NCBI GenBank assembly: GCA_013416485.1
Contig: JACCEO010000004.1
Location: 124,001-188,000 of the forward strand
From: Alcaligenaceae bacterium
GTDB lineage: Bacteria; Pseudomonadota; Gammaproteobacteria; Burkholderiales; Burkholderiaceae_B
Length of the DNA stretch: 64,000 nt
Reading direction: 5' to 3'
Position numbers and translations under genes: made by a program. Shown piece after piece: positions 6,111 to 37,921 of this stretch (positions are counted from its first letter, which is position 1; each line of letters begins with the position of its first letter). The notes under the pieces are model-generated. The model saw only the letters and a list, made by a program, of their open reading frames with translations, was not told the DNA's origin and searched no databases.

Positions 6111-6136
6111 TACTTGTCCTTGTAGTCGTATTTATT

Positions 6137-6209
6137 TGAAATTAAATTTCATGATGTCTATTTGTTGAAATAAAATACCATATCAAATAAAAATATGAAA
6201 TCTAATTTC
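6137..6209. promoter_or_regulatory. Array of three Lrp-like boxes between the Lrp gene and glmS
   Basis: Two perfect inverted repeats of the form GAAAT-N3-ATTTC lie at 6138-6150 (extended to a 15-base palindrome at 6137-6151) and 6197-6209. A partial copy, GAAAT-AAA-ATACC, lies at about 6167-6179. Their centres are near 6144, 6173 and 6203, so spacing is 29-30 bases. Evenly phased boxes are what an oligomeric Lrp-family protein would use to wrap DNA. The assignment to the adjacent regulator is inference. Confidence 0.55.
6165..6193 (+). promoter_or_regulatory. Possible sigma70 promoter for glmS
   Basis: TTGAAA at 6165-6170 and TAAAAA at 6188-6193 are separated by 17 bases, giving five of six and four of six matches to the -35 and -10 consensus. 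The region is AT-rich, so a chance match is possible. The candidate overlaps the middle Lrp-like box, so a bound regulator would block it. Confidence 0.3.
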
Positions 6210-6260
6210 TTTTAATGTGCCCCACAATAGACCATCTTCCCAATTTGCAGGAGCAAATCT

Positions 6261-9624: not shown

Positions 9625-9735
9625 GTGGTCTGTATTGCTTCAAATAAATGGTGGGGAATATCCAGCCATTTTAAGGCTATAAATTCGTTGATCAATGTTG
9701 TTCATAAAATCGCCTTTAGGAGTCACTGTCAGGCC

Positions 9736-17928: not shown

Positions 17929-17933
17929 GGTTG

Positions 17934-18872
17934 TTATGTGGTGCGGGGTGGCCGCACCACGAAACTGACACCTAAAGCGGTGATTGCGGTACCGATAGCG
18001 ATCATCAGGGTAATGGGCTCGTCAAAAAGAGCCCAGGCAATAACGGCGGTTGTGGGTGGTACCAGGTAGAACAGGCTGGCCACAGATGTAGCCGCACCGC
18101 GCTGTATCAATAGGTATAGCAAGGAACTACCGCCCAGTGATAAAACAAGCACAGACCATGCCAGGGCACCGATTAACTCCAAGTTAAGCGTGGCATTAGT
18201 CGATAGCCATTGCATGGGTTCAGTTTCTAATAGGGCGACGGGTATCGTCACCAGAAAGGCCGCTGATAACTGGACTAAATTGGCAGTGCGTACATCGCAC
18301 GGTTGTACAAAGCGCTTTTGGTATAGCGTCCCAATGGTTATGCCCAGTAGCGCAGCGGTAGCCCAGGCCAGACTGGCCAGTTGCACTTCGCCATAACCCA
18401 GTTTGGCCCAGACTACCAACAATAGACCTGCTAGTCCTAGCGCTAATCCTAGCCATTGAACTTTGGCAACATGTTGCCCCCGACTGGATAGCCAGATGGC
18501 AGTAAGTATGGGTTGCAGGCTGACCAGCAGGGCGCTTAGTCCTGCTCCCATGCCTATTTTGATTGCAGCCCAGACGCCGGCAAGGTAGATGCCGTGAATC
18601 AACACACCGGTTACTGCCAGATGCATGCATTGGCGCTGGTTGCTTGGCCACTTAGCACCGCTAAGTAGTGCCCAGATCAAAAAGCAGCCAACCGACAGAG
18701 CATATCGAAAAGACAGAAAGCTCATGGGTGGCGCAGATGGCATACCGTAGCGCGCAACGATAAAACCGGTGCTCCAGACCAGCACAAACACAACAGGGGC
18801 CAGTGCCAACCAACCTGTAGTGCGCGCCGCTGGCTGTGAGGGTGATGGTTCAGTGGCCGCTAGTCTAGTCAT
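17934..18872 (-). CDS. EamA/DMT-family transporter
   Basis: The 312-residue inner-membrane protein has ten hydrophobic segments arranged as two EamA repeats. Hallmarks are VLVWSTGFIVARYGMPSAPPMSFLSFRYAL in the first repeat and SLFYLVPPTTAVIAWALFDEPIT near the end of the second, the conserved PxxAxxxxxxxxxE motif. Relatives export amino acids or other metabolites. It lies 21 bases downstream of the LysM/LytM lipoprotein gene on the same strand, so the two may be cotranscribed. It converges on the amidase with five bases between stops. The substrate is unknown. Confidence 0.88.
   Translation of the reverse strand: MTRLAATEPSPSQPAARTTGWLALAPVVFVLVWSTGFIVARYGMPSAPPMSFLSFRYALSVGCFLIWALLSGAKWPSNQRQCMHLAVTGVLIHGIYLAGVWAAIKIGMGAGLSALLVSLQPILTAIWLSSRGQHVAKVQWLGLALGLAGLLLVVWAKLGYGEVQLASLAWATAALLGITIGTLYQKRFVQPCDVRTANLVQLSAAFLVTIPVALLETEPMQWLSTNATLNLELIGALAWSVLVLSLGGSSLLYLLIQRGAATSVASLFYLVPPTTAVIAWALFDEPITLMIAIGTAITALGVSFVVRPPRTT
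17938..17960. terminator. GC-rich hairpin between converging genes
   Basis: GTGGTGCGG (17938-17946) pairs perfectly with CCGCACCAC (17952-17960) around a five-base loop. It covers the last codons of the EamA gene and sits 10 bases beyond the amidase stop. It lacks a U-run on either strand, so a terminator role is only possible. Coding constraint (repeated Arg, Thr and Pro codons) could also explain it. Confidence 0.35.
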
Positions 18873-18893
18873 TCGAAGGTCGCTTATTGTGTG

Positions 18894-19619
18894 TTATTTG
18901 GGTAGGTAGCGTAAGGCATCTACCGCTTTGCCGTTATAGCGTAGCTCAAAATACAAGTTCACCGCATTACTGCCTGTGTTACCCATAGTGGCTATGGTTT
19001 GTCCTTGTTTAACTTGGGCGCCTTCTTTGACCAATAGGTCTTTGTTGTGTGCATATACCGTTATAAAGTTGGCATCATGATTGACGATAAGCATGTTGCC
19101 ATAGCCACGCAGGCCATTGCCCGAATACATGACCTTACCTCCTGCTGCTGCTTTGATGGGCGAGCCTTCTGCACCTGCGATATATACGGCTTGGCTACTG
19201 GAGGCTGACGCACCACGTCGTGACTTACCTTGGGCTGGCCATACCAGTTTGATGGAGCGTGGTGCAGCCAATGATGGCCCAAGCTTTGGCGCAGTCGGTG
19301 CCACAGGTGCTGTAGATGAGGTCGACCCTGAAGCGGCCGTGCTGGTCCCTGCGACCTTAAGAATTTGACCTACATGGATGGTGTTGACGTTACTTAGATT
19401 GTTTAAACGTCGTAATGACGCGACGCTTTGCCCATGTTTGCGTGCAATCTGTGTCAGGGTGTCACCCTTGACGACTCGGTATTCGCCTTGGGCAATTGGC
19501 TTGGTGGTTCCACATGCAGCGAGTATGGCGGTCATAAACAGAACAGCCAGTAGCCGGGCGTAAGGAACACGCCGGGTGGCGTGTTCTATCGTATGTAAGT
19601 AAGTAGAGAGTGTCAGCAT
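18894..19619 (-). CDS. NlpD-like lipoprotein: LysM plus degenerate LytM (M23) domain
   Basis: The 241-residue protein has an N-terminal hydrophobic segment ending in the lipobox ILAAC (Cys about residue 36), so it is probably a lipoprotein. A LysM peptidoglycan-binding domain follows (about 46-92: YRVVKGDTLTQIARKHGQSVASLRRLNN), then a linker and a C-terminal LytM/M23 domain (about 125-240). The catalytic zinc ligands are largely missing: the first HxGxD motif is absent and the final HxH motif reads NLYFELR instead of LHFEIR. This resembles NlpD/EnvC proteins that activate amidases rather than cut peptidoglycan. No rpoS or surE is adjacent, so it is not the usual nlpD locus. It lies between mipA-like and eamA-like genes. 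Confidence 0.85.
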   Translation of the reverse strand: MLTLSTYLHTIEHATRRVPYARLLAVLFMTAILAACGTTKPIAQGEYRVVKGDTLTQIARKHGQSVASLRRLNNLSNVNTIHVGQILKVAGTSTAASGSTSSTAPVAPTAPKLGPSLAAPRSIKLVWPAQGKSRRGASASSSQAVYIAGAEGSPIKAAAGGKVMYSGNGLRGYGNMLIVNHDANFITVYAHNKDLLVKEGAQVKQGQTIATMGNTGSNAVNLYFELRYNGKAVDALRYLPK

Positions 19620-19697
19620 AGGGTGGTGCAGGTCTAAATAATGTGTATGTGATCACTTTATCAAGAAACCTATCGCTATACACCCATTACGACCAGC

Positions 19698-20477
19698 TTA
19701 GAACGAATACATGATGCCAATATTGCCAAAAAGACTGGTTTTGTCTTCCACAATAGGGCTGTCCGCAGCATCGCCCATCAGGGTTTGTACGCCTAACAAG
19801 GTAATCACGCTCCAGTTTCCGCTAAGTTGGTGATGCCAGGTGCCGTAAACGGACGCTGATTTAAATCCTGACGAAGGCGAGTAGGTGCGTAAACGGCCTT
19901 GGCTTGCTGCCGCTTCGTGATGTTTAACGCCGAAGTGCGTTTTCATGGATTTATCACTGGCCCAAAGCGTACTAACGCCAAAGCGTAGTGTGTCACTGCC
20001 TTCCTGCCACGCTTGGTAGGATCCACGTAGTTCGGCAACGCCGCCATACCCGCTACGCAAGGCTTGGTAATAAGCTGCACCCAGTGAAAAGGGGCCTGGC
20101 CTCCATTCGGTATAGACACCAGCAGCACCATGGAATTTGATATCGTCCATACCTTCTAAGCGCTCGGACTTATCCGCTTTACGGCCTAATCCCATGCCTA
20201 GGAATACGCCAGCGCTCCAGTTTTCGGTCAGGTCGGTTTTTAAACCCATGCTGGGTAACCCTGCGCGTGGAGAAATAAAGAAGTTGCCGTTGCTGTAGTT
20301 GATTAAGGGTACAGGTAGCGCGCGATAGTCTTTAGACCCTTCGTACTTAGGAATAAAGCCCAGACCTAATCCTACGGAGTTTTGAGCGTGTGCACTTGGT
20401 GCTAAAGCAGCGACTGCCAGAGCAATAAGTGACATCAAAACTGGTGATTTAGTGGGGCGCGCTGATGGGGTAGCCAT
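19698..20477 (-). CDS. MipA/OmpV-family outer membrane protein
   Basis: This 259-residue protein has a signal peptide (KSPVLMSLIALAVAALAPSAHA) and then a beta-barrel sequence with alternating aromatic residues. The family segment GLGLGFIPKYEGSKDYRALPVPLINY is present and the protein ends in the outer-membrane-type MYSF with terminal Phe. In E. coli MipA interacts with MltA and PBP1b in murein growth, while other members act as porin-like proteins. I start at 20477 because AAGG precedes that ATG by eight bases. The longer form begins 24 bases upstream and adds residues before the signal peptide. It lies 78 bases upstream of the LysM/LytM lipoprotein gene on the same strand. Confidence 0.9.
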   Translation of the reverse strand: MATPSARPTKSPVLMSLIALAVAALAPSAHAQNSVGLGLGFIPKYEGSKDYRALPVPLINYSNGNFFISPRAGLPSMGLKTDLTENWSAGVFLGMGLGRKADKSERLEGMDDIKFHGAAGVYTEWRPGPFSLGAAYYQALRSGYGGVAELRGSYQAWQEGSDTLRFGVSTLWASDKSMKTHFGVKHHEAAASQGRLRTYSPSSGFKSASVYGTWHHQLSGNWSVITLLGVQTLMGDAADSPIVEDKTSLFGNIGIMYSF

Positions 20478-20662
20478 TGGTAATACCTTAGATAAATACA
20501 AAAACGTGAAAATGAGACGTGATTGTATCTTTTAAGGAATTTAAGACCTGTTATCACCGCGGCATTGTTTAGGGGACTACGAATTATGTACGCTGTACTA
20601 CGGACCATACGGCTGCCCATCATATGTTTTACTAGTGCCTGGTTAATTGTAGGAATAGTAGC

Positions 20663-21790
20663 GTGCTTCATATTGTCAGTGCAGTCATAGGCGTATATAC
20701 GGTTATACGCTTTGTGTTGCCCCTGCCGTGGTGTAAAACAAACAAGGCGTTATTTGCCGCTCTATTGTTTTTGCTTGCCCAGCATCATCTGATCGAAAAG
20801 CGTATCTTTGGCTCTATCGCATCGCCCGAGATGCCTGCGGCGGTAATTATGTTGCTAGGCTGGGCATATGGTGCTGTGTTGCTGCTTGCCATGTTGCTGG
20901 TGATCAGGGATGTGGTTGGCCTGCTGTGCTATGCGTGCTCGCGCAAGCTAGGTAAGGCCTTGCTGTCAGGGCATGGCGTTCTGTATGGCACTGGTTTGCT
21001 GGTGATGCTGTTATCGGGTGTGGGTGTGTGGGAGGCTGTGCGTGTCCCCAGGGTCAAGACGGTAGAAATTACTCTGCCAAATTTGCCGCAAGAATTTGAC
21101 GGATTTCGTGTTGTGCAGCTGACGGATCTACATGCCAGCCGGCTGTTACAGCAGCCCTGGATGGCTGCTGTGGTAGCTAAGGCCAACGCGTTGAACCCTG
21201 ATCTAACAGTGATTACGGGTGATCTGGTGGACGGTACGCCACAAGCCCGAGCAGCGGATGTCGAACCTTTGCGTGCCTTAACTGCACGGTACGGTGTATA
21301 TGCCGTGCCGGGCAATCACGAGTACTACGTCAACTATGTGGGTTGGATGGAAGCATTCAAGCAGTTAGAGCTACCCATGCTGCTGAATGAACATGTGGTC
21401 ATTACTCACAAAGGGAGCAATCTGATACTGGCAGGTATTACAGATAGGGTGGCCTACGCTTATCATGATTTGCCGCCTAGTACGGCTGATGCAGTAAATG
21501 GTGCCATACCATCAGATCCCGTAATACTGCTTAGTCATAGACCGGTAAGTGCACTGGATAATGCAGCAGAAGGCGTCGATTTGCAGCTATCCGGTCATAC
21601 GCATGGTGGACAAATTTATGGTGGGCATTTGTTGGTGCAATGGGCCAATGAAGGCTTTGTGTCTGGGTTGTATCAGGTAGGCACTATGCAAATGTATGTT
21701 AGTAACGGTACCGGTCTTTGGAATGGCTTCCCCATACGTTTAGGGCGGCCCTCGGAAATCACCCAGATCGTATTGCGTTCGGCCATATGA
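20663..21790 (+). CDS. Membrane-anchored metallophosphoesterase
   Basis: The 375-residue protein has four N-terminal hydrophobic segments (about residues 1-125) and a C-terminal calcineurin-type phosphoesterase domain. All metal-ligand motifs are present: LTDLHAS (D-x-H), TGDLVDG (GDxxD), PGNHEYY (GNHE), LSHRP and LSGHTHGGQIYG (GHTH). Relatives such as YkuE/YaeI act on phosphodiesters near the membrane. The start is a GTG with AGGA at 20651-20654. It is divergent from the MipA-type gene across about 185 bases. The physiological substrate is unknown. Confidence 0.92.
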   Translation: MLHIVSAVIGVYTVIRFVLPLPWCKTNKALFAALLFLLAQHHLIEKRIFGSIASPEMPAAVIMLLGWAYGAVLLLAMLLVIRDVVGLLCYACSRKLGKALLSGHGVLYGTGLLVMLLSGVGVWEAVRVPRVKTVEITLPNLPQEFDGFRVVQLTDLHASRLLQQPWMAAVVAKANALNPDLTVITGDLVDGTPQARAADVEPLRALTARYGVYAVPGNHEYYVNYVGWMEAFKQLELPMLLNEHVVITHKGSNLILAGITDRVAYAYHDLPPSTADAVNGAIPSDPVILLSHRPVSALDNAAEGVDLQLSGHTHGGQIYGGHLLVQWANEGFVSGLYQVGTMQMYVSNGTGLWNGFPIRLGRPSEITQIVLRSAI

Positions 21791-21795
21791 CCGAT

Positions 21796-22620
21796 TTAAC
21801 CCAGGTACATACCCGTTACCCGGTTGCGTAGGGCTAATATCGCGCTATACACCGTTAGGGCAGATGTTTTTGGGTTGGATGCCAAGGGTTTGTTTTGCAT
21901 GGTTAGTTCGAATTGACCAAAGGCCCCTTTGGCTTCAACCGTATGTACGTTGTCCGATACGTTAGGGTCAGCGATTAGGCGTACCTGGGTTTGATCCAGA
22001 CCCAGTCCAGCCAATGACACGGTAGCCGCCACATTGGCATTTTTTGGATATAGCGCTGCGGCCTCACGAGCGCAACCTTCAAAGATCACGGTGGCCTGGG
22101 TAACGGCGTCCAGATTCAAATGTTGGTCTGCTGGCGTACCTTTCCAGGAACTAGGCGGCTTGCGACCGGTATAGCGAACCTGATCCAGCCCGCCTATGCG
22201 GGCAGCTGCCAGCGCGTCTATGGCGCCTATCGCGCCTGCAACCAGCTGGGCTTGGGTGTTACCGGTTTGTGCCGCGGCCTCTAGGCGTGCAGGCATGCCG
22301 GGTGCAGATAGGGCACCTATGGAAACAATAATGCAGGGTGTGCCGTGTTCAAGGGCAGGTAATACATGCTGCTCTATAGCCGTATGGCCTGCGGCTTCAA
22401 TGACCAAGTCAATATGCTGTTGGGGTAGGTGGCTTAGTACCTGAACGGCTAGGCCCAGTTTCGCAGTCAGTGCTGTGGCTTTTGCTATTGACCGTTCTGG
22501 CACCACGATGGTGGTGATCTTCAAGTGGGTGTCGGCGTTAAGCAACTCCAGCATAGCAACGGCTATAGCACCGCAGCCTATCAGGGCAATCTTTAAAGGA
22601 GAAGTCGTTAAGTGTGTCAT
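21796..22620 (-). CDS. nadX: L-aspartate dehydrogenase (NadX-like)
   Basis: From the chosen ATG at 22620 the protein is 274 residues, close to the usual 265-270. A Rossmann motif IALIGCGAIAVAML opens the NAD(P)-binding domain. VIEAAGHTAIEQHVLPALEHG and SIGALSAPGM match the family, and SWKGTPAD plus NANVAATVSLAGLGLD are characteristic of the DUF108 aspartate dehydrogenase domain. The enzyme oxidises aspartate to iminoaspartate, feeding NAD synthesis or aspartate catabolism. A longer ORF start at 22698 adds 26 residues that do not resemble the family. No nadA/nadC neighbour is visible. It converges on the metallophosphoesterase gene. Confidence 0.87.
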   Translation of the reverse strand: MTHLTTSPLKIALIGCGAIAVAMLELLNADTHLKITTIVVPERSIAKATALTAKLGLAVQVLSHLPQQHIDLVIEAAGHTAIEQHVLPALEHGTPCIIVSIGALSAPGMPARLEAAAQTGNTQAQLVAGAIGAIDALAAARIGGLDQVRYTGRKPPSSWKGTPADQHLNLDAVTQATVIFEGCAREAAALYPKNANVAATVSLAGLGLDQTQVRLIADPNVSDNVHTVEAKGAFGQFELTMQNKPLASNPKTSALTVYSAILALRNRVTGMYLG

Positions 22621-22820
22621 GGAAGTGTCTAGTTGCTCTATCGGATATATAAGGTAGCCCATGTTGTCTTGAAACTTAACAATAAATAAAGATTGCAACA
22701 GGCGTAGGCTGACTTATCCCTCAGTAACATTGGTATAGTGAATTCAGTGCGTATCGCCAGCTTGGTAGTACGTATTATCACCTTGATCAATCGCTAGTCA
22801 GACTACGCCCAGGAGGCACC

Positions 22821-23210
22821 ATGAGTTTCTTTAGCAAAATTCTTTCCAAACTAGGTATTGGCAGTGCGAATGCTGCCACCACAGAGACCGCAGCCACTGC
22901 AGCAGATGCCGCGACTGCTGATGTCGCAGCACCTGTAGTTGCGATTGCCGTGGTTGATGTCGTCGCACAACTGGAAAAAAGTGCTAAAGCCAATCCCCAG
23001 AAACTCAATTGGCGTACATCTATCGTTGACTTGTTGAAACTGCTGGATATGGATAGCAGCTTGACTGCACGTAAAGAACTGGCCACAGAATTAGCCTGTC
23101 CAGCAGAACTGATGGTGGATTCCGCCGAAATGAATATCTGGTTGCATAAAACCGTGTTGGTGCGTATCGCTGCTAACGGCGGTAATGTGCCCCAGGAACT
23201 TTTGTCCTAA
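22821..23210 (+). CDS. DUF3597 domain protein
   Basis: The 129-residue protein begins MSFFSKILSKLGIG, followed by an Ala/Thr-rich low-complexity stretch (about residues 16-45) and then a conserved helical domain. That domain contains WRTSIVDLLKLLDMDSSLTARKELATELACP and ends in EMNIWLHKTVLVRIAANGG, which I recognise as DUF3597. Function is unknown. DUF3597 proteins share a LysM-associated small-domain history in proteobacteria, but no LysM is present here. AGGAGG at 22811-22816 is a strong Shine-Dalgarno. The DUF937 gene follows after 35 bases, so the pair probably forms one transcript. Confidence 0.82.
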   Translation: MSFFSKILSKLGIGSANAATTETAATAADAATADVAAPVVAIAVVDVVAQLEKSAKANPQKLNWRTSIVDLLKLLDMDSSLTARKELATELACPAELMVDSAEMNIWLHKTVLVRIAANGGNVPQELLS

Positions 23211-23245
23211 GCGCATCGCGTTTTACGTACTTACAGGAGCAGGTC

Positions 23246-23785
23246 ATGCAAATCACTGAAACCTTGGCCCAAATGGGTGGGTTGCGTTCAATAGCGCAGC
23301 AACTGGGCGTTACCGAGGCCCAGGTTACCAGCGGGGCGGATGCTTTGATCCCAGCCATATTAGGTGGGTTTAAACATCAAACCCAGATGCCTGCTGTGGG
23401 GGCTGGTGGTTTGGCTGGCCTGTTCGGTCAATTAGACAGCGGTAACCAGGTGCTGGGCCAAATATTTGGTTCTAAGGATGTGAGTCGGACGGTGGCACAA
23501 AGTGCGTCGGCGCAATCTGGTCTGGATCCTGAATTACTGAAAAAAATGTTGCCTATGCTGGCGATGCTGGTTACTAGTTTTATGGCCAAGCGTAGTGAGG
23601 CTACTGAAGCCACTGCCCCAACGGATACCGCACAAGGCGGTTTAGGTGGCTTGTTAGGTAATTTACTGGGTGGTGGCCAGCCATCAAACAGCCAAGCCGG
23701 TGGTTTAGCGTCATTACTGGATATGAACGGGGACGGTAACGCGCTGGATGACATTATGCGTATGGCGGGTAAATTTATACGTTAG
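23246..23785 (+). CDS. DUF937 domain protein (YidB-like)
   Basis: This is a 179-residue protein. Residues 1-120 form the DUF937 domain: two short helical repeats with QITETLAQMGGLRSIAQQLGVTEAQVTSGADALIPAILGGF and then LLKKMLPMLAMLVTSFMAKR. The last third is Gly/Leu-rich (GGLGGLLGNLLGGGQ) and ends with an acidic DMNGDGNALDDIMRM segment that resembles a single calcium-loop-like sequence. No signal peptide or membrane segment is visible. Function is unknown. It follows the DUF3597 gene by 35 bases and precedes an esterase gene by 36 bases, with AGGAG at 23236-23240 as Shine-Dalgarno. Confidence 0.82.
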   Translation: MQITETLAQMGGLRSIAQQLGVTEAQVTSGADALIPAILGGFKHQTQMPAVGAGGLAGLFGQLDSGNQVLGQIFGSKDVSRTVAQSASAQSGLDPELLKKMLPMLAMLVTSFMAKRSEATEATAPTDTAQGGLGGLLGNLLGGGQPSNSQAGGLASLLDMNGDGNALDDIMRMAGKFIR

Positions 23786-23821
23786 TATCATCGGGTTCAT
23801 TACTTACCCAAGGACCTTGTG

Positions 23822-24766
23822 ATGTTACTCCACCCCCAAGTACAGGCGCTACTGGATCTTACCGTGCAGCGTGGCATACCCCCCACTCATACCCTGTCGC
23901 CTGAACAGGCTCGTAGTGCCTACTTGTTGCGTGGGTCCTTGGTGAATCCGCCATCGCCTCAGGTAGCTTTGGTATGTGAACTGACTGCCGATGGCCCTGC
24001 GGGTCAGATACCGTTGCGTTTATATCGGCCTGTCGATAGCGTAGCTGATCACGTGTTACCGGTGCTGGTTTGGTTTCATGGTGGTGGCTGGGTGATAGGT
24101 GACTTAGATAGTCACGACGTACTGTGTCGTGAGCTGGCGAACCTGTCTGGTTGTGCGGTTGTGGCAGTGGACTATAGGCTGGCACCCGAACACCCCTTCC
24201 CAGCGGCGGTAGATGACGTCATGGCAGCCACACAGTGGGTACATGACCATGCCGCTGATTTACACCTAGACGCTAGTCGACTGGCGGTCGGGGGCGATAG
24301 TGCTGGCGGTAATTTGGCCGCTGTTGTGGCCATCTTGGCACGTGATCAGGGTAATTTGCCGATTGCTTTTCAGCTATTGATTTATCCGGTGACCGACTTA
24401 CAGCAAGGCCATGCCTCGCATACCAGCAATGGTCAAGGCTATTCACTGACTACTGATACGCTTAATTATTTTTATGGTCATTACGTGGTGGCGCCACAGG
24501 CCATTACCGATTGGCGTGCTTCGCCTTTGTTACACGACGATCACACCAACTTGCCGCCAGCGTTGGTCATTACGGCTGGGTATGACCCTTTGCGTGATGA
24601 AGGGCGGGACTACGCGCTTGCCTTGACAGCAGCAGGTGGACGGGCCAGCTATGCGTGTTTCGAGCGCCAAATTCACGGCTTTATTGGCATGGGTGGTGTG
24701 CTTGACGAGGCCAATGCCGCTGTTGCCTTGTGTGCAGGCGAATTGAAGCGGGCGCTTAAGGCATAG
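23822..24766 (+). CDS. Alpha/beta hydrolase, HSL-type esterase/lipase
   Basis: The 314-residue enzyme carries the hormone-sensitive-lipase oxyanion motif HGGGW (in VWFHGGGWVIGD), the nucleophile elbow GDSAGG (in AVGGDSAGGNLAA), the acid YDPLRDEG and the catalytic His in QIHGFIG. It probably hydrolyses short-chain carboxylic esters in the cytoplasm. No signal peptide is seen. GTG at 23819 and ATG at 23822 are adjacent. ATG is preferred because AAGGA at 23810-23814 sits at better spacing. The last 11 bases overlap the convergent Ada-like gene. The physiological substrate is unknown. Confidence 0.93.
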   Translation: MLLHPQVQALLDLTVQRGIPPTHTLSPEQARSAYLLRGSLVNPPSPQVALVCELTADGPAGQIPLRLYRPVDSVADHVLPVLVWFHGGGWVIGDLDSHDVLCRELANLSGCAVVAVDYRLAPEHPFPAAVDDVMAATQWVHDHAADLHLDASRLAVGGDSAGGNLAAVVAILARDQGNLPIAFQLLIYPVTDLQQGHASHTSNGQGYSLTTDTLNYFYGHYVVAPQAITDWRASPLLHDDHTNLPPALVITAGYDPLRDEGRDYALALTAAGGRASYACFERQIHGFIGMGGVLDEANAAVALCAGELKRALKA

Positions 24767-28382: not shown

Positions 28383-30857
28383 ATGATGAATTTGCACATT
28401 CCACCGGCCAGGCGAAGGGGGGTCACTGCCCTTTTAGCTTTAACGGTGTCAGTGTGCGCAGTTGTTATGTTGGTGGCGTTGACTGCGTCCCAGTATGTAT
28501 CTGCCTGGGCTGGTCTGTACCTTCCTATGCACAGTCTCATGGAACTGTTCGCCGTTGTGGTGGCCATGATGATATTTGGCGTGGGATGGCATCAGCCGAA
28601 TAGATCATGGGCTGTGCTAATACTTACTTCGGCGTTTTTTGCGGCAGCTTGGCTAGATGCAGGATATCTGCTGTCAGCCTTAGGGATGCCCGATTTCTTC
28701 GGTCCCAGTTCAGGACAAAAAAGTCTGGCGTTTTGGTTGTCTGCACGGTTGTTGACCGCGTTAGCATTACTGGCGTATGGCTTGTGTTCTTTGATGCGTT
28801 GGGAGCGTAGCGGTAATCGTTACTGGGTCCTAGGTGCTTTCAGTCTGATGGTCTTGTTGGTGTATTGGGGCATATTGCTAGACCCTGATCAACTGCATTT
28901 AGACTTGAATGGTGGCTCTGGCTCACCGACCTTCAGACTGACCATAGAATGGTTGATTATCGGTATATTTAGCCTGGCGGCTTTGTGTTTTTTGCCACAG
29001 GTTTTATTTACCGACAGGCCCAGGGTCACCTATCTGTTGATGGCCACGTTGATCCTGATATTTACCGAGATCCTGGTAATGAGCTTTGCCCAGGCTGGAA
29101 ATACCTACAGGCTGGTTGGGCATGCGTATAAAATCATCGCGTATTTGTTTTTGTACTGGGCTATTTTTGTAGACGCTGTGCGTGAACCGTATTTGCAGTT
29201 GCAGCGGTCACAGCGGTCATTGGCATACAGCGAAAGTAAATTCAGAAGCCTGGTCGAATTTGCGCCAGATGCCGTACTGCTTATGGATGATAGTGGCTAC
29301 ATCAGTACCATGAATCAAATGGCCGAGTCCATGTTTGGTCTACAGCGCTCTGACACCAAAGGTGTTGATGGGCGTAAATTAGTGCCTGACTCGGATACCG
29401 ATCAGACTAGCGTGGAAGTAATGTGCCAGCGCATGTCAGGCGAGTGGTTTCCTGCTGAAATCAGCCGTAGCCGAATGCCTGCAACGAATGGAAGTACGAC
29501 GATTATGCTGGTGGTCCGAGATATTTCGGAACGCAAGCGCATGCAGCGCGCTTTAGTTGATCAGCTGACCCACGATGCGCTGACCGGACTGCCTAATCGC
29601 ACCTTAATTATTCGTAAATTGCACGAAGCCCTGGCCCAAGCAGAAATGCACTCCCAACGTGTAGCAGTACATTTTTTGGATGTGGATTTTTTCAAAAAAA
29701 TCAATGATACCTTTGGCCACAGCCATGGTAATGAAGTTCTGCGTATCTGTGTGCAGCGCCTATCTGCGCTATTACCCAAGGGGGATATCCTAGCGCGTCA
29801 CGGTGGAGATGAGTTCATCATCGTGCAAAACCGGGTTGTCGACAAAGAGCAGGCTAGTGTCATGGCAGACTATTTATTAAGCGCCATGCGCAAACCGTTT
29901 GTCATACGTGGTCACGATGTTTTCCTTAGTGCCAGCATAGGCATGGTGATTTATCCTGATGACGACAAGACCGAAGACGGTCTGCTGCAAAAGGCCAATG
30001 TGGCTATGGGTAGCGCCAAAGAAGAAGGACGGGACACCTATTGCTTCTATACGCCGGACATGGATCAAAGTCTGCGTGAGCGTCTACAAATTGAAGGCTA
30101 CTTACATAACGCGGTCGAAAATCAAGAACTGTTTTTAGAGTACCAGCCTAAAGTTAACTTTAGTACGGGTGCTGTAATTGGGGTCGAGGCCTTACTACGC
30201 TGGAAGCACCCCAGGTTGGGCCTGGTGCCACCAGACCGTTTTATTCCTGTTGCCGAGCATAGCGGCCTGATCGCCAACATAGGTATGTGGGTACTGAACG
30301 AAGCGTGCTCGCAGGTCATTAAGTGGCAAGCCCAGGGCTTACCTGCGTTAAAGATGTCGGTGAATTTATCAGCGCGTCAGTTTCAGCAGCCTGATCTTCC
30401 TGGGCAAATACTGCAGATATTGCAAAGCACTAACCTAGATCCCACCTTGCTCGAGCTAGAGCTGACTGAAAGTACCGTTATGCGCGATACGGGTGCCGCC
30501 GTGATTGCTCTTGAATCACTAAGCCAGTTGGGGCTTAGTTTGTCGATTGATGACTTTGGTACGGGTTATTCTTCCCTAAGTTATTTGAAACAGTTTCCGA
30601 TTCATGTCTTGAAAATTGACCGAATTTTTATCAAAGACGTCATGAATAACCCTGATGATGCTGCCATAGTTCGCGCTATTATTGCCCTTGCGCACGGTAT
30701 GGAACTGGCTGTTGTTGCTGAAGGTGTTGAAACCCTGGAACAGGCTCAATTTTTACACGCTCATGGTTGTGACCATATGCAGGGCTATTATTTCAGTCGG
30801 TCATTGCCCCCTGATGTATTCAGAGATCGCTATCAACAGGGCTTTAAGACACTTTAA
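28383..30857 (+). CDS. Membrane GGDEF/EAL c-di-GMP protein with MASE3-like sensor and PAS domain
   Basis: The 824-residue protein begins with about eight hydrophobic segments (residues 15-270) resembling MASE3, including MHSLMELFAVVVAMMIFGVGW. A PAS domain follows (about 285-390: SKFRSLVEFAPDAVLLMDDSGYISTMN). Then come a GGDEF domain with intact motif ARHGGDEFII (about 475) and an EAL domain with EALLRWKHP, ELTES, DDFGTGYSSL and KIDRIFIKD. Both catalytic motifs look intact, so it could make or degrade c-di-GMP. The inhibitory RxxD site five residues before GGDEF is absent (PKGD instead). ATG codons occur at both 28383 and 28386. The ligand is unknown and no partner gene is adjacent. Confidence 0.9.
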   Translation: MMNLHIPPARRRGVTALLALTVSVCAVVMLVALTASQYVSAWAGLYLPMHSLMELFAVVVAMMIFGVGWHQPNRSWAVLILTSAFFAAAWLDAGYLLSALGMPDFFGPSSGQKSLAFWLSARLLTALALLAYGLCSLMRWERSGNRYWVLGAFSLMVLLVYWGILLDPDQLHLDLNGGSGSPTFRLTIEWLIIGIFSLAALCFLPQVLFTDRPRVTYLLMATLILIFTEILVMSFAQAGNTYRLVGHAYKIIAYLFLYWAIFVDAVREPYLQLQRSQRSLAYSESKFRSLVEFAPDAVLLMDDSGYISTMNQMAESMFGLQRSDTKGVDGRKLVPDSDTDQTSVEVMCQRMSGEWFPAEISRSRMPATNGSTTIMLVVRDISERKRMQRALVDQLTHDALTGLPNRTLIIRKLHEALAQAEMHSQRVAVHFLDVDFFKKINDTFGHSHGNEVLRICVQRLSALLPKGDILARHGGDEFIIVQNRVVDKEQASVMADYLLSAMRKPFVIRGHDVFLSASIGMVIYPDDDKTEDGLLQKANVAMGSAKEEGRDTYCFYTPDMDQSLRERLQIEGYLHNAVENQELFLEYQPKVNFSTGAVIGVEALLRWKHPRLGLVPPDRFIPVAEHSGLIANIGMWVLNEACSQVIKWQAQGLPALKMSVNLSARQFQQPDLPGQILQILQSTNLDPTLLELELTESTVMRDTGAAVIALESLSQLGLSLSIDDFGTGYSSLSYLKQFPIHVLKIDRIFIKDVMNNPDDAAIVRAIIALAHGMELAVVAEGVETLEQAQFLHAHGCDHMQGYYFSRSLPPDVFRDRYQQGFKTL

Positions 30858-31015
30858 TAGGCACAGGCGTTTTTAGTGATGCGACTGTCGTGATAGGTGT
30901 TTACCCTTAGTTGATGCCAGTTCGGTTGCCAAACAAATCATTAATCGCTAGTGTGCTGCCCTGCATAGACGGGATTGCACCGCTAAACCATTATTTTATT
31001 TTCCAGGAGAAGCTC

Positions 31016-32077
31016 ATGCCTCAGTCAACATATTTGCAAGGTGCTTGTGTTTGGCACGGGGCAGACATGGCTCAGGATAATCGATGGGTTAAAAATATTC
31101 CTGCTGCAGCCTTGGAGCAAATTGACGCGGCGCTTGAAGCAAGCAAAGGCCAGGATTGGCGCACAATCAATGCTGATAACTTCAATCTATCGGCGGCCTC
31201 AGCTTTCTTTGATGAAGTCCGTGAAGAGCTTGAAAATGGTTCGGGCATGGTGAAAATCCGCGGCCTTGATGTCAAGCGCTATGATCAAGAACAACTGCGT
31301 CGTTTATGGTACGGCCTAGGTGGCAATTTGGGTGCCTTGCTGTACCAAAATTGCCGTGGCGAGGTAATGCGTGAAATCAAAGATGAAGGCAAGGGCGTAG
31401 GCAGCAAACTGTACGGAGCGACTGTCGATAGTTCAGGAAAGCCGTTTCTGTCTTCCGGTGCTCGTACCCTGTCGCCAGGCGAGCTGCGCTTTCATACTGA
31501 CCGTTGCGATGTGGTTGCTTTGCTGTGCGTACGCCAAGCTTCTGAGGGTGGGGTTAGTAAATTGGCTAGCAGTGCCACTGTCTATAATGAGATCCTTGCG
31601 CGTCGTCCGGATTTGCATGCGCTATTGTGTCAGCCAATTCCCCGCAGTCGTTTTGGTGAAGAAATGGGCGGGGAACATATCGTCTACGATTTGCCTATCT
31701 TCGGCGTACGTGATGGTAAGCTCACTAGCCATTTTTCATTAACGTACATTGAGAATGCGCAAATGTTGCCTGGTGTCCGCAAGTTGACTGATGCTGAACA
31801 TGAAGCCATTCAACTGTTAATGGACGTGGCACAAGAAGTGTGTTTTGAAATGCGTTTTGCGCCAGGGGATATCCAGCTGTTGAACAATCATGTTATTTAT
31901 CATGGCCGCACCGCTTTTAAAGACGACATTAGTACCGGACAAGACCGTACACTAATGCGTTTATGGTTAGGTATGCCTAACTCTCGTGCTTTACCGCCAG
32001 AGCATGCCGTGCTTTGGGGGGATGTCAGTGCAGGCAGGCCGCATGGTGGTATTGCACAACCGGCTACTGTACGTTAA
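31016..32077 (+). CDS. TauD/TfdA-family Fe(II)/2-oxoglutarate-type dioxygenase
   Basis: The 353-residue protein has the TauD-fold iron triad: H160 and D162 in RFHTDRCD and H296 in IYHGRTAF. R311 or R315 is a candidate 2-oxoglutarate ligand. Family members hydroxylate taurine, gamma-butyrobetaine, amino acids and other carboxylates. The sequence does not let me pick one. CCAGGAGAAGCTC precedes the ATG at 31016, so the upstream ORF extension is rejected. It heads an operon with a polar-amino-acid ABC transporter (binding protein, permease and ATPase), so its substrate is probably the imported compound. No reductase partner is present, as expected for this family. Confidence 0.88.
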   Translation: MPQSTYLQGACVWHGADMAQDNRWVKNIPAAALEQIDAALEASKGQDWRTINADNFNLSAASAFFDEVREELENGSGMVKIRGLDVKRYDQEQLRRLWYGLGGNLGALLYQNCRGEVMREIKDEGKGVGSKLYGATVDSSGKPFLSSGARTLSPGELRFHTDRCDVVALLCVRQASEGGVSKLASSATVYNEILARRPDLHALLCQPIPRSRFGEEMGGEHIVYDLPIFGVRDGKLTSHFSLTYIENAQMLPGVRKLTDAEHEAIQLLMDVAQEVCFEMRFAPGDIQLLNNHVIYHGRTAFKDDISTGQDRTLMRLWLGMPNSRALPPEHAVLWGDVSAGRPHGGIAQPATVR

Positions 32078-32185
32078 ATCAACACGTAAAAACCATGAGT
32101 TTTTGGCTTTCTGGACTGTATCGCATCGCGGGTTCAGTTCACCCAGGAAGTCCTCATGACCATTTTCACCACACGGAGACCAGTA

Positions 32186-33064
32186 ATGAAGAACAAAAAT
32201 GATAAACAGGTAAAAACAAGGGCGGTAGGCTTGGGCGCATTGCTCATATCGCTGTGTTCGCTTGGGGCGTTTTCGGCCTCTGCAGCGGCAGCAGGCAATT
32301 ATGGCAATTGCGAAGTTACCGGAGAGCGTGGCAGCATTACGCTACTAACGGTAGTGCCGGGGGCATTGTCCGTAAGGCCAGTGTTGCCTTCCCCAGGTTG
32401 GTGGAACGGTGACTCGCCCGATACCATCAAAGATGGTTTTGAATACTGCATGGCTGCCACTATGGCGCATAGGGCAGGACTGGATAAGGTCAATGTGGTA
32501 ACACGTTCCTTTGCGCAGATATTAACGGGTCAATCCCAGGGTTTCGATATTGCGCTAAGCGAGATCACCATTACTCCAGAACGCCAGAAAGTCGTGGACT
32601 TCACCGTGCCTTATTTCCATTCGGATCAAGGAATCATGGTTAAAAAAGGTGCCAAGGTCACACAAGATAACGTTAAAGCGATGCGTATTGGTGTAAAACA
32701 AGGCACCACCATGCATGATTACGTCACCGAAAAAATCAAACCAGAACAGCCAATTAAGGTATACACCGAAGTGTCTTCAATGTATGCAGCGCTGGCGGCA
32801 GGTCAGGTAGATTTGGTAATCTATGACGCCCCCAACGTACTGGCAGGCGCTAAGCAGTCTAACGGCTTATTCGAGGTCATAGGCCGCTACGAGACAGGCG
32901 AATCCTGGGGTGGCTTGGTGAACAAAGACTCACCGAATTTGAACGCCTTTAATACTTTAATTGACGCCATGAAGGCGGACGGAACGTTCGACAAGTTGGC
33001 CAAAACCTATTTGGTCCCCAGTTTTGGTGCTGATCCAGCCACACTACCTATTTTTACTCCCTAA
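32186..33064 (+). CDS. Polar amino acid-type ABC transporter substrate-binding protein (family 3)
   Basis: This 292-residue protein starts at the ATG at 32186, with CGGAGAC seven bases upstream. A signal peptide (GLGALLISLCSLGAFSASAAAA) is followed by an SBP_bac_3 domain with FDIALSEITITPERQKVVDFTVPYFHSDQGIMVKKG, the central family signature. GVKQGTTMHDYV and AALAAGQVDLVIYDAPNVL are lobe-2 segments. The mature N-terminus contains an unusual insertion (residues about 45-80, rich in Pro, Gly and Trp) before the first helix, which may shape the pocket. It lies between the dioxygenase and the permease in the same operon. The ligand is unknown. Confidence 0.88.
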   Translation: MKNKNDKQVKTRAVGLGALLISLCSLGAFSASAAAAGNYGNCEVTGERGSITLLTVVPGALSVRPVLPSPGWWNGDSPDTIKDGFEYCMAATMAHRAGLDKVNVVTRSFAQILTGQSQGFDIALSEITITPERQKVVDFTVPYFHSDQGIMVKKGAKVTQDNVKAMRIGVKQGTTMHDYVTEKIKPEQPIKVYTEVSSMYAALAAGQVDLVIYDAPNVLAGAKQSNGLFEVIGRYETGESWGGLVNKDSPNLNAFNTLIDAMKADGTFDKLAKTYLVPSFGADPATLPIFTP

Positions 33065-33079
33065 ACGCGACGCAGTACC

Positions 33080-34216
33080 ATGAGCAAAGTAACAAATCCG
33101 GCATCAAGCCAAGCGGCCGTTATCGCTAGAAAGCGGCGACTGGACATGGGGGGTATGCCGGTAGTTCCTGTAGGGCTATTCCTATTTGCTCTGGTGGCGG
33201 CAGCCATCGTGATGTTTGGTAGCTGGTATACCATCATCGCGATGGGTAAGGGCCTAGAAGTGGCTGAAATGTATGGGTGGTGGGTACCCGCTGGATCCAT
33301 ACTGTTAGGGCTGGTGTCTCTTATTGTTGCGCAGCCGGTTATTGGTGCGTTCAAGCAATGTCGGATACTTAGTCGTGCCGCGGCCAACAAAGACGTTGTC
33401 GCCGCGCGCATTGCCCGCACCGAGGCACGTACTCAATGCTGGATCGCGCTAAGCTATGCATTGGCTCAGCTTATTGTTATTTTGTTGTGTCAGTTTTTAT
33501 TGGCAAATAACTACGCTGTTGCCAAGACCTTTTTCTTTGTACCCCTAATCATTAAAACGTTTCCGCTAGTGCTAAGCGCTTTTTGGATTAACGTCAAAAT
33601 TTTTCTTATCTCCGGTGTGCTAGTTTTGATCTGGGGGTTGGTGGTAGCGTTGGCGATGTTTGCGCCTGGAAAGGCAGGCAAGCCTTTGCGCTATATCGCG
33701 ACAGTCTATGTCGATGTCTTTCGCGCCATGCCAGCAATATTGGTCATTTATCTGGTCGGGTTCGGCTTGCCGCTGACCGGTGTGCCCATACTTAAAGACT
33801 TTTCGTTAATCACCTATGTCGTTATCGCGTTAACGCTGACCGTGGGTGCTTACGTCGCAGAAATTTATCGCGCGGGTATACAAAGCATACATTGGAGCCA
33901 AGCCGCAGCGGCGCGCTCTTTGGGGCTGTCTCATATGCAGACCCTACGCTTTGTTGTGGTCCCCCAAGGTGTGCGGCAAATTATTCCGCCATTGCTAAAT
34001 GCGCTGATTGCGCTGCAAAAGGACACGGCCTTAGTCAGTATTGTGGGTGTTACGGACTCGTTCAATCAATCGATGATCATTGCTGGTAACTACTACAATC
34101 TCTCGGCGGCCATATCGGTTGCTTTACTGTTCATCATCATTTCAATTCCCCAGACGCGCTTTGTAGAGCGGATGGCGCAACGTGACCGTGCTCGTATGCG
34201 CGCCACTGCCGGCTAA
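33080..34216 (+). CDS. Polar amino acid ABC transporter permease with N-terminal membrane extension
   Basis: The 378-residue protein is longer than the usual 220-250 residues for this permease type. The C-terminal half (about 165-370) is a standard HisM/GlnP-type domain with FWINVKIFLISGVL, VFRAMPAILVIYLVGFGLP and the coupling loop EIYRAGIQSIHWSQAAAARSLG. The first 160 residues add a basic start and about three extra hydrophobic segments (near residues 27-48, 63-85 and 118-142), separated by a charged loop (RAAANKDVVAARIARTEAR). It begins 15 bases after the binding protein gene and ends 13 bases before the ATPase gene. Confidence 0.9.
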   Translation: MSKVTNPASSQAAVIARKRRLDMGGMPVVPVGLFLFALVAAAIVMFGSWYTIIAMGKGLEVAEMYGWWVPAGSILLGLVSLIVAQPVIGAFKQCRILSRAAANKDVVAARIARTEARTQCWIALSYALAQLIVILLCQFLLANNYAVAKTFFFVPLIIKTFPLVLSAFWINVKIFLISGVLVLIWGLVVALAMFAPGKAGKPLRYIATVYVDVFRAMPAILVIYLVGFGLPLTGVPILKDFSLITYVVIALTLTVGAYVAEIYRAGIQSIHWSQAAAARSLGLSHMQTLRFVVVPQGVRQIIPPLLNALIALQKDTALVSIVGVTDSFNQSMIIAGNYYNLSAAISVALLFIIISIPQTRFVERMAQRDRARMRATAG

Positions 34217-34229
34217 AGGGGCGGGTGAT

Positions 34230-34973
34230 ATGTCGTTTATTGATATTCGTAATATTTCTAAGTCCTATGGTGACTTATCGGTCTTGAATCAGTTGTCCTT
34301 GACGATTCAAGAGCACGATGTAGTGACCTTGATAGGCCCTTCGGGTTCGGGTAAGTCAACATTATTGCGCTGCATTAATGGCCTAGAGCCCATTGCTTCA
34401 GGTGAAATACTGGTCCACGGCGAACGAATTACCGGACCCGGTGTAGACATTAACGTGTTGCGCAGAAATATTGGTATTGTTTTCCAGGGGTATAACCTAT
34501 TCCCTCATATGACCGTGCTGGAAAACATTACACTCGCGCCCATCCAGGTGCTGAAGCTATCTAAAAAAGAAGCAGAAGAAAAGGCGTTGGCACTGCTTAG
34601 CCGTTTCAATCTGGCAGAAAAAGCGAAAGAATATCCTGACCGCATGTCGGGTGGGCAGCAACAACGAGTCGCTATTGTGCGCGCGTTGGCGATGGATCCT
34701 ATGGTGTTACTGCTGGATGAAATTACGTCAGCATTGGACCCGGAGCTTGTATCCGAGGTGCTAAATATTGTGCGGGATGTGGCCGCTGAAGGGATGACCA
34801 TGCTGCTTGCTACTCACGAAATGGGTTTCGCCAAAGAGGTGTCTTCCAAAGTATGCTTTTTGTGTGACGGTACCGTATGCGAGGAAGGGACTCCAGAGCA
34901 AATATTTGGTGACCCACAAAAAGATCGAACTCGTGCGTTTTTGCGTAGCATCCGAGAGGCGAAGCGCATATAA
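34230..34973 (+). CDS. Polar amino acid ABC transporter ATP-binding protein (GlnQ-type)
   Basis: The 247-residue ATPase has Walker A GPSGSGKST, a Q-loop in VFQGYNLFPHMTVLENI, the signature MSGGQQQRVAIVRAL, Walker B VLLLDEITSALDPELV and the switch His in LATHEMGFAKEV. It closely follows the GlnQ/HisP pattern. I use the ATG at 34230, 13 bases after the permease stop and with a GGGGCGGG purine-rich segment upstream, over an ORF start inside the permease gene. It energises the transporter encoded with the dioxygenase. It is the last gene of the operon, and aconitase follows after a 134-base gap. Confidence 0.95.
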   Translation: MSFIDIRNISKSYGDLSVLNQLSLTIQEHDVVTLIGPSGSGKSTLLRCINGLEPIASGEILVHGERITGPGVDINVLRRNIGIVFQGYNLFPHMTVLENITLAPIQVLKLSKKEAEEKALALLSRFNLAEKAKEYPDRMSGGQQQRVAIVRALAMDPMVLLLDEITSALDPELVSEVLNIVRDVAAEGMTMLLATHEMGFAKEVSSKVCFLCDGTVCEEGTPEQIFGDPQKDRTRAFLRSIREAKRI

Positions 34974-35107
34974 ATCCATATGCTTATCTGGCTAGGTAGG
35001 CTGAGTTTTTAGGTCGTTTACCCTACCGGCTAGACAGAGTATCCTATTTAAATGGCTCATCGCGTGCTACCGTGATGTATACAGCATTTAACTTGGAGGT
35101 CAGGCAA

Positions 35108-37921
35108 ATGGCGAGTACCAATAGTTTCAAGGCGCGTAGTGTGCTTAACGTGGGTGATAAGTCCTATGAAATTTACCGGCTGGCGGCCGTTGCTGGACCT
35201 GATGCCGACGTAGCACGCTTACCCTATAGTCTAAAAATTCTTCTTGAAAATCTGCTGCGCACAGAAAATGGCGTAGATATTACCGCTGACGATATTCGTG
35301 CTTTGGCTGCCTGGGATGCCAACGCTGAACCCAGCCGTGAAATTGCCTTCACCCCGGCACGGGTAGTGCTGCAAGATTTTACTGGTGTACCCGCGGTGGT
35401 GGATTTGGCCGCAATGCGTGAGGCGATGGTAGACCTGGGCGGTGACCCCACCCGTATCAATCCTTTAGCACCCGTAGAGCTGGTTATAGACCACTCGGTT
35501 ATTGTTGACTCCTTTGGCAGCACTAGCGCTTTTGCCCGCAACGTTGATATTGAATACCAGCGTAACCTAGAGCGTTATCAGTTCTTGCGTTGGGGTCAAA
35601 CTGCGTTTGATGATTTCAAAGTCGTGCCTCCTGGCACAGGCATAGTCCATCAGGTCAATCTGGAGCACTTATCGCGTGTGGTGTTTACCCAGGAACAGGG
35701 CGGCATTACCGTTGCTTATCCCGATACCTGTGTAGGTACAGACTCGCACACTCCTATGGTGAATGGCTTGGGCGTGGTCGCTTGGGGTGTTGGCGGCATA
35801 GAGGCTGAAGCTGCTATGCTGGGTCAACCTATATCCATGCTAATCCCACGCGTGGTGGGTTTTAAGCTAACGGGGAATTTGCCAGAAGGCGCTACCGCAA
35901 CTGACTTGGTGCTGACCATTACCGAGCGCTTGCGTCAGCACCGTGTGGTAGGTAAATTTGTCGAATTTTACGGGCCAGGTGTTGCTGCTGTGCCGTTGGC
36001 CAACCGTGCCACCATAGGCAACATGAGCCCTGAATATGGTTCTACTATCGCCATCTTTCCTATTGATGACGTTACCCTGAACTACATGCGTTTAACAGGG
36101 CGTTCCGAGGCACAAATTGCTTTGGTCGAAGCCTATTCCAGGGCGCAAGGCCTATGGCACGACGCTGACCTGGAGCCTCGCTATTCTGAACATCTTGAAC
36201 TTGATCTATCCACCGTGGTGCCATCCATTGCTGGACCCAAACGTCCGCAAGATCGTATTTCCTTGGCGGATGCCAAGCTCGCCTTCCGTGGTGCTTTGGC
36301 ATCGTATGTAGATTTGCCCGGCGAGAAAAAACAAGGCTATGACAAGGCTATAGATGAGTCCTTTCCCGCTTCGGATTCCCCAGCCTACAAGGACGCCGAC
36401 GTACGCTCGGCGGCACCTACCGATCATGTCGCCGAAGCACCAGCGGGCGATTCACGTCGTCACGAAGCGGTATCCTTTACCTTGGCTGATGGTAGTCAGT
36501 GTTCTATGGATCATGGCTCGGTTGTGATCGCCGCCATTACTTCGTGTACCAACACCTCTAACCCGGCCGTAATGATGGCGGCCGCTTTATTGGCAAAAAA
36601 TGCTGTCAATAAAGGTCTGACCCGTAAACCTTGGGTAAAAACCAGTTTGGCGCCAGGGTCGCGTGTGGTCACTGACTACTACGATCGTGCGGGTGTTACT
36701 CCTTATTTGCAAGCCCTAGGTTTTGACCTGGTGGGTTATGGTTGTACTACATGTATTGGTAACTCTGGCCCCTTGATTCCCGAAGTTAGTCAAGCCATTG
36801 CCGAGCACGATTTATCTGTGGTGTCGGTGTTGTCGGGTAACCGCAACTTCGAAGGGCGTATACATGCTGAAATCAAGATGAACTACCTGATGTCACCACC
36901 ATTGGTGGTGGCTTATGCCTTAGTAGGAACGATGGACATCGATCTGATGAACGATTCCCTGGGCAACGATAAAGACGGCAACCCTGTTTACCTGAAAGAT
37001 ATCTGGCCTAGTGCTGCCCAAGTCCAGGCTGTCATCGAAACGTCCATTGCGTCCGACATGTTCAAGTCTGGCTATGCCGACGTGTTCGCAGGCGATCAAC
37101 GTTGGCAAGCCCTACCCACTCCCAAAGGTGATATCTTTGAATGGGAAGACACGTCCACTTATGTGCGTAAACCACCGTATTTCGTTGGCATGCCACGTAC
37201 TCCGGATGCTGTTACTGACATCCAAGGTGCACGCGTACTGGCGTTTTTAGGTGATTCCGTCACTACAGACCACATCAGTCCTGCGGGTTCAATAGCACTT
37301 AACTCACCCGCTGCCATTTACTTGACCGAACACGGGGTAGCGCCGGTAGACTTCAACTCTTACGGTTCACGACGTGGTAATCACGAAGTCATGATACGAG
37401 GTACGTTTGCTAATGTGCGTCTGCGCAACCAGTTAGCACCCGGTACAGAGGGGGGCTATACCCGTGACTTCACCAAGCCGGATGGGCCGGTGGCCACTAT
37501 ATTTGATGCTTCTGAAGCGTATCTTGCCGCAGGTACTCCGTTAGTGATATTGGCGGGTAAGGAATATGGGTCGGGATCATCACGCGACTGGGCAGCCAAG
37601 GGCACGGTATTGTTAGGGGTCAGGGCTGTTATTGCCGAATCTTACGAACGCATACACCGTTCCAATTTACTGGGCATGGGTGTGCTGCCGCTGCAATTTC
37701 CAGAAGGCAGTACCGCGGTTAATTTGGGCTTAACGGGTCAGGAAAGCTTTACCATTACAGGCATTACTGCCTTGAACGAAGGCGGTATTCCTGCCACCGT
37801 TCATGTGCAAGCGGGTGATGTCAGCTTCGATGCTTTGCTACGCATAGACACCCCCAGCGAAGCGGCTTATTACCGGCATGGTGGCATCATGCAGTATGTG
37901 CTGCGAGGGTTGTTGGTTTAG
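35108..37921 (+). CDS. acnA: Aconitate hydratase A with an extra central segment
   Basis: AcnA isomerises citrate to isocitrate with a 4Fe-4S cluster. The cluster Cys residues are visible in SCTNTSNP (first) and [12 protein letters not shown] (second and third). [43 protein letters not shown] and [14 protein letters not shown] are strong IRP/AcnA-family segments. The start at 35108 has GGAGG at 35095-35099. At 937 residues it is longer than the 890-905 I expect. The extra length falls near residues 405-450, between [11 protein letters not shown] and the ITSCTN motif, and contains [10 protein letters not shown]. Confidence 0.97.

Follow-up and report, generated by a model that had tools for sequence, protein, structure and literature searches.

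Fe(II)/2-oxoglutarate dioxygenases of the TauD/TfdA family are recognized by an HxD...H iron triad followed by an arginine that serves 2-oxoglutarate, and AlkB provides a precedent for N-demethylation by enzymes of this type. In glutamine-binding proteins, an arginine and an aspartate hold the alpha-carboxylate and alpha-amino groups of the ligand. For the histidine utilization (Hut) pathway of Proteobacteria, comprising HutC, HutH, HutU and HutI, we take YGTMTAKACR to be the operator consensus of the HutC subfamily. The footprinted HutC site of Pseudomonas is TGTA-N2-TACA (PMC12977541). The subject of the present analysis is a four-gene unit at positions 31016 to 34973 of a 64,000-nucleotide stretch of an Alcaligenaceae genome (contig JACCEO010000004.1, positions 124,001 to 188,000; hereafter, the window), in which a gene for a TauD/TfdA-family dioxygenase precedes the genes of an ATP-binding cassette (ABC) importer of the polar-amino-acid type.

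Comparison with 24 orthologous loci outside the window revealed, at the level of sequence, conserved genes, hut neighbors, HutC-type operators and co-occurrence with HutH. In most carriers examined, the hut neighbors and operators point to histidine metabolism. The reading favored here, to which we assign roughly even chances, is that an imported histidine derivative is converted to a substrate of the Hut pathway.

A conserved dioxygenase and importer unit

The first gene of the unit (31016..32077, plus strand) encodes a TauD/TfdA-family Fe(II)/2-oxoglutarate dioxygenase of 353 amino acids (PF02668, 96.5 bits; curated cut-off, 27). The triad H160/D162/H296, which the original prediction had described as intact, is unchanged in all 45 aligned dioxygenases, as are R311 and R315. 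On the same strand follow a family-3 solute-binding protein (32186..33064; 292 amino acids; SBP_bac_3 PF00497, 81 bits), a permease of the polar-amino-acid type (33080..34216; 378 amino acids; BPD_transp_1 PF00528, 68.3 bits) and a GlnQ-like ATPase (34230..34973; 247 amino acids; ABC_tran PF00005, 125 bits). The four frames are open and complete, and the intergenic gaps of 108, 15 and 13 bases bear out the predicted operon-like run headed by the dioxygenase. An extra in-frame ATG of the binding-protein gene is found at 32156. The permease carries about 150 additional N-terminal residues ahead of the transport domain (TIGR01726 at residues 161-265, 56.8 bits; cut-off, 42.2), and the ATPase reaches 297 bits with the GlnQ NCBIfam model, under its cut-off of 379. 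With a family-3 binding protein, a 3TM-type permease domain and a GlnQ-like ATPase, the three transport genes together have the composition of a polar-amino-acid ABC importer.

A scan of 84,980 species genomes by sequence pattern, in which only relatives sharing an exact 8-residue stretch are detectable and which is therefore not exhaustive, yielded 20 dioxygenase orthologues at 77-82% identity, after removal of one of 21 loci (L053, Streptomyces, 28% over part of the protein). Plasmids added two (79% and 76%; the remaining 35 of 37 plasmid records were below 60% identity and were removed) and the family of the window another two (G151 and G159), giving the 24 loci, with L046 and G156, taken to be one assembly, counted once. 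The four-gene order, which the original prediction had proposed to seek in other genomes, is present at 20 of these loci, in Pandoraea (11), Variovorax (5), Bordetella sp. BOR01, Caballeronia insecticola, G151 and G159. At two of them (L031 and L039) one gene is inserted directly behind the dioxygenase; in L031 it is annotated as a tripartite tricarboxylate binding protein. The expected conservation of the unit is thus confirmed in the main, but it is not strict: the alphaproteobacterial loci L033 and L034 hold the dioxygenase alone, without the transporter, and two gammaproteobacterial metagenome-assembled genomes (L035, 11159-12031; L048, 11167-12042) hold just the dioxygenase and the binding protein, no counterpart of the permease or the ATPase being found in the stretch. 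The conserved unit supports the proposal that an amino-acid-like compound would be oxidized on entry.

Distribution of the unit is patchy: among 268 genomes of the family to which the window belongs, four are carriers, including that of the window. Among 399 sampled genomes of the order, the sole dioxygenase match at E 1e-90 or better was the window, and a search of 398 genomes of the phylum for binding-protein relatives gave two matches, the window among them, at E 1e-55 or better. The dioxygenase of Pandoraea terrae is 89% identical to the alphaproteobacterial protein of L033, which suggests that the dioxygenase has passed between lineages.

In the binding protein, R133 and D214 show no variation across 19 orthologues and align with the ligand-holding arginine and aspartate of glutamine-binding proteins, which favors a free alpha-amino acid as the ligand rather than a betaine or an opine. 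Because more distant relatives of the binding protein also keep both residues, they indicate the class of ligand and not its side chain.

HutC-type operators and hut neighbors

The YGTMTAKACR operator occurs in the 150 bases preceding the dioxygenase gene at 18 of the 24 orthologous loci: in all 11 from Pandoraea, four from Variovorax, and those of Caballeronia, Bordetella sp. BOR01 and G159. Among 413 other genes of these loci, defined by in-house codon-based gene calls, only five carry the operator; four of these are hutH, and the fifth, in L051, is transcribed divergently from the unit. The operator precedes none of 29 paralogous dioxygenases, two of which (L020 and L021) are partial matches where the scanned stretch falls inside the gene, and 1000 base shuffles of the orthologous promoters gave a mean of 0.05 loci and a maximum of 1. 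Three of the six loci without a strict site have a one-mismatch form (L033, L051 and L059). Of 16 stretches of 9-18 kb surrounding hutH in relatives, 13 contain a looser form of the operator. Furthermore, the core TGTATATACA lies between hutC and hutU in both Pandoraea hut loci that were fetched (L128 and L129) and also precedes the unit in the same two genomes (L043 and L036), where unit and hut genes are not neighbors. By its operator, the unit would count as a member of the HutC regulon at the 18 loci.

In the window, a degenerate operator, TGCATAGACG, is located at 30962..30971 (plus strand), one mismatch from the consensus and in the alignment columns of the intact operators of relatives. 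Upstream of it (30894..30907, plus strand) is a box, TAGGTGTTTACCCT, of the form TA(G/A)GNN(N)TTT(N)CCC, which is perhaps an activator site. This box is present in 19 of 24 orthologous promoters and in none of the 413 other genes, the pattern having been derived post hoc from the orthologous promoters themselves. Where both elements are present (17 loci), the box starts 68-70 bases ahead of the operator; the spacing in the window is 68. One-mismatch operator sites abound in the window (17 against 15.7 expected), and the box pattern has five matches there over both strands, so the argument rests on their joint position. No sigma-70-like site was found upstream of the dioxygenase in a promoter scan, and an Rfam search of positions 30000-36000 gave no match.

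hut genes themselves adjoin the unit at some loci. At five of 24 (L039, L046, L051, L057 and L059), hutH lies no more than two genes downstream. The ATPase gene is followed by hutC and then hutH in Variovorax (L039 and L051, both continuing to hutU), Bordetella (L046) and G159 (L057), and by hutH, hutU, a HutD-like gene, hutI and hutC in G151 (L059), while L031 has a HutC-family regulator alone, with no hutH. The HutH, HutU, HutC and HutI members scanned at these loci reach their NCBIfam cut-offs; the HutD-like protein of L059 stays under the Ves cut-off, at 118 of 292 bits. HutH is present over the cut-off in 22 of 23 unit-bearing genomes versus 75 of 268 in the window's family, although these are not 23 independent cases, since 11 are Pandoraea. 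HutU was found in nine of ten unit-bearing genomes examined, and for both HutH and HutU the exception is the genome of the window. In a HutH tree, the five unit-linked copies fall in one clade with canonical Variovorax HutH, and the linkage label needs two changes. A single origin is compatible with the tree, which means that the five hut-linked loci do not represent five separate events. A divergent HutH-like protein (about 305 bits, under the cut-off) adjoins HutU in G151 (G151:C1:3148237-3149799) and G156 (G156:C22:1098864-1100432), in addition to the full HutH beside the dioxygenase unit.

Regulation by HutC or by another GntR-type protein might also accompany a substrate other than a histidine derivative, the hut link being only regulatory or neighborly and the enzyme hydroxylating a different amino acid. 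A GntR-family gene of another type does lie upstream of the unit in the 11 Pandoraea loci and divergent to it in four Variovorax loci, the organism of the window carries the unit without hut, and structural relatives of the dioxygenase include lysine, asparagine and arginine oxygenases. However, L046 and L057 combine the operator and HutC with no such GntR gene adjoining the unit, and the preponderance of hutH among the other operator-bearing genes weighs against this explanation, which is considered unlikely.

Canonical hut operons of Variovorax (L126, L127 and L130) contain a different ABC transporter, 30-39% identical to that of the unit. Variovorax CF313 has such a canonical operon with the other transporter and, behind the unit, a second hutC-hutH-hutU set. 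In the canonical operon of this strain (G660; L130, 6539-8261), hutU is split into two pieces in different frames, and so is broken or misassembled; the unit-linked copy is intact to the contig end. These arrangements bear on the idea that the transporter imports histidine itself under hut control, with the dioxygenase hydroxylating histidine or a side product apart from HutH. The binding protein looks suited to an alpha-amino acid, and an amino-acid transporter belongs to the canonical operons as well. Yet hydroxylation of histidine would compete with HutH, often the next gene or the next but one, and the canonical operon of CF313 already has its own transporter besides the unit, making this idea quite unlikely.

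A taurine or alkanesulfonate system was rejected, as a TauABC/SsuABC-kind set lies behind the unit at just two of 24 loci and the binding protein is of an amino-acid family; both loci are from Pandoraea (L038, 14101-16941, and the matching place in L041), where what we take to be a sulfonate/taurine-type ABC transporter set directly follows the unit. Hydantoin, allantoate and diaminopropionate catabolism were likewise rejected: the genes lie near some Pandoraea loci and that of V. paradoxus VAI-C, divergent or separated from the unit, and are not shared across lineages. The VAI-C locus (L031) includes genes for hydantoinase, carbamoylase and racemase accompanied by a different amino-acid transporter (2732-9740) and 5-oxoprolinase-type genes (LamB/YcsF and allophanate hydrolase subunits; 17836-24351).

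The genome of the window (G000; 2.78 Mb, completeness 99.99) contains a single match to the dioxygenase and two matches to hisD. A terminator-like hairpin lies 3' of the ATPase gene (34982..35001, plus strand); hairpins of this kind are about as frequent in shuffled sequence (seven found, 4.9 expected). Judging from their translations, the flanking genes are presumably of the GGDEF/EAL type (5') and the aconitase type (3'), and the window's own neighbors are thus uninformative on function. On the minus strand, at 8059-9624, a 521-amino-acid frame has a GntR-type DNA-binding start (match G000:C24:133349-133552) and is perhaps a MocR-type regulator.

A modified histidine as candidate substrate

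In the favored reading, the binding protein, permease and ATPase would import a histidine modified in its side chain, and the Fe(II)/2-oxoglutarate dioxygenase would oxidize the modification, freeing L-histidine, which HutH would deaminate to urocanate. HutC, presumably bound at the operators, would repress the unit until urocanate appears. If the substrate were N-methylhistidine, the N-methyl group would be hydroxylated and lost as formaldehyde. The original prediction could name no substrate; hut neighbors and operators now narrow it toward histidine metabolism, with the exact compound at the level of a candidate.

Relatives of the transporter provide a further pointer. Non-orthologous relatives of the binding protein were found on 12 plasmid records, and the seven inspected are all dioxygenase-free. 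On a plasmid of Lichenihabitans psoromatis (L162, 4658-10656), the transporter relative (binding protein 51% and permease 55% identical to those of the window) lies directly behind folD in a run of a gcvT-like gene, purU and folD; the opposite strand carries metF and genes for an FAD oxidase and an aminotransferase. A set of this kind is typical of folate-dependent demethylation. Compared with the unit of the window, genes for folate-dependent demethylation replace the dioxygenase. N-methylhistidine is the simplest natural fit, because it is a free alpha-amino acid, would give histidine in an oxygenase step and agrees with the presence of a transporter relative beside demethylation genes. It is the leading candidate, though a tentative one. 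The full proposal, of a dedicated bacterial module in which a HutC-controlled importer serves a TauD-family oxygenase demethylating free pi- or tau-methylhistidine to histidine and formaldehyde, is similarly to be regarded as possible rather than probable.

Several observations weigh against a histidine derivative and against its N-methyl form. The genome of the window lacks HutH and HutU and has no HutC over the cut-off, and its operator is itself imperfect by one mismatch. Given the lack of the Hut enzymes sought, the product would serve only as histidine, salvaged and not degraded, or the function has shifted. Six of 24 loci are without a strict operator within 150 bases upstream, and four of these, the two alphaproteobacterial (L033 and L034) and two gammaproteobacterial loci (L035 and L048), are without adjoining hut genes as well. 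Eleven of the 24 loci come from the single genus Pandoraea, and the hut linkage may represent one single event. The operator evidence is regulatory, not chemical. Finally, only one of the seven dioxygenase-free transporter relatives inspected adjoins demethylation genes; neighbors of the others, in Streptomyces (two records, 50%), Agrobacterium (41%), Rhizobium (37%), Ochrobactrum (37.5%) and Shinella (34%), point elsewhere or nowhere. The Agrobacterium relative is near an N-formylglutamate amidohydrolase gene.

Animal muscle turnover yields methylhistidines as end products. Within the terms searched and among open papers, there was no published description of the unit, no bacterial methylhistidine demethylase and no assignment of bacterial methylhistidine breakdown to genes. 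If the methylhistidine proposal is true, the unit would provide the first enzyme, importer and regulator for this process, would extend the Hut pathway to N-methylhistidine, would assign a step that releases formaldehyde to soil-dwelling and host-associated Burkholderiales and would turn the generic annotation "TauD/TfdA family dioxygenase" into a readily checkable question. Even with a different compound, placement in the Hut regulon would narrow the substrate to histidine derivatives.

Relation to described oxygenases and the Hut pathway

The dioxygenase orthologues form a subfamily marked by 35-36 residues from G125 to H160, a segment of 19-25 residues in 24 related dioxygenases of 28-39% identity. 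A close characterized homologue was sought and none was found, the nearest solved structures being TtnM and FrbJ. TtnM (PDB 7n7v), an Fe(II)/2-oxoglutarate hydroxylase of tautomycetin biosynthesis, is the top sequence match among solved structures (155.6 bits) and also the top fold match to a structure model of the dioxygenase (predicted local distance difference test, 86.4; predicted template modeling score, 0.87), with Z 33.4 over 289 residues at 2.3 A and 32% identity. However, TtnM works in antibiotic biosynthesis, according to its entry title, and, so far as its alignment reveals, lacks the long segment ahead of the HxD motif; it is not known to adjoin a transporter or hut genes. The second match, FrbJ (PDB 5eqn; Z 29.3, 26% identity), is alike in fold and iron motif but hydroxylates a phosphonate, and nothing at the unit of the window points to phosphonates.

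Next in the fold ranking come oxygenases of free alpha-amino acids, KDO1, AsnO, VioC, NapI and CmnC (Z 21-24), which share the fold but are just 15-20% identical and hydroxylate or desaturate carbon; they are not known to have a hut link. Clavaminate synthase and the quaternary-amine oxygenases gamma-butyrobetaine hydroxylase and TmpA appear, from the model, to be about as far away. The last two bear on the suggestion that a histidine betaine, for example hercynine, is the substrate and is attacked at the trimethylammonium group or beside it. The structural matches include the human gamma-butyrobetaine hydroxylase and TmpA (Z ~22), and the sequence models of these two match weakly; the NCBIfam models for GntD, TmpA, clavaminate synthase, VioC, and gamma-butyrobetaine and trimethyllysine dioxygenases all give only 21-30 bits, far under cut-offs of 268-450. 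The betaine oxygenases are no closer in fold than those of free amino acids, though, and the invariant D214 is less suited to a quaternary amino group than to a free alpha-amino group, so that a betaine is judged very unlikely.

The Hut pathway is the described system with which a role in supplying histidine would connect the unit. Canonical hut stretches (L120-L135) contain no match to the dioxygenase of the window, in contrast to the five loci at which unit and hut genes are neighbors and the 18 of 24 with a HutC-type operator. On this comparison, which draws on gene content and promoter sequence, the unit is a conserved module and a candidate accessory branch of the Hut pathway using a TauD-family oxygenase.

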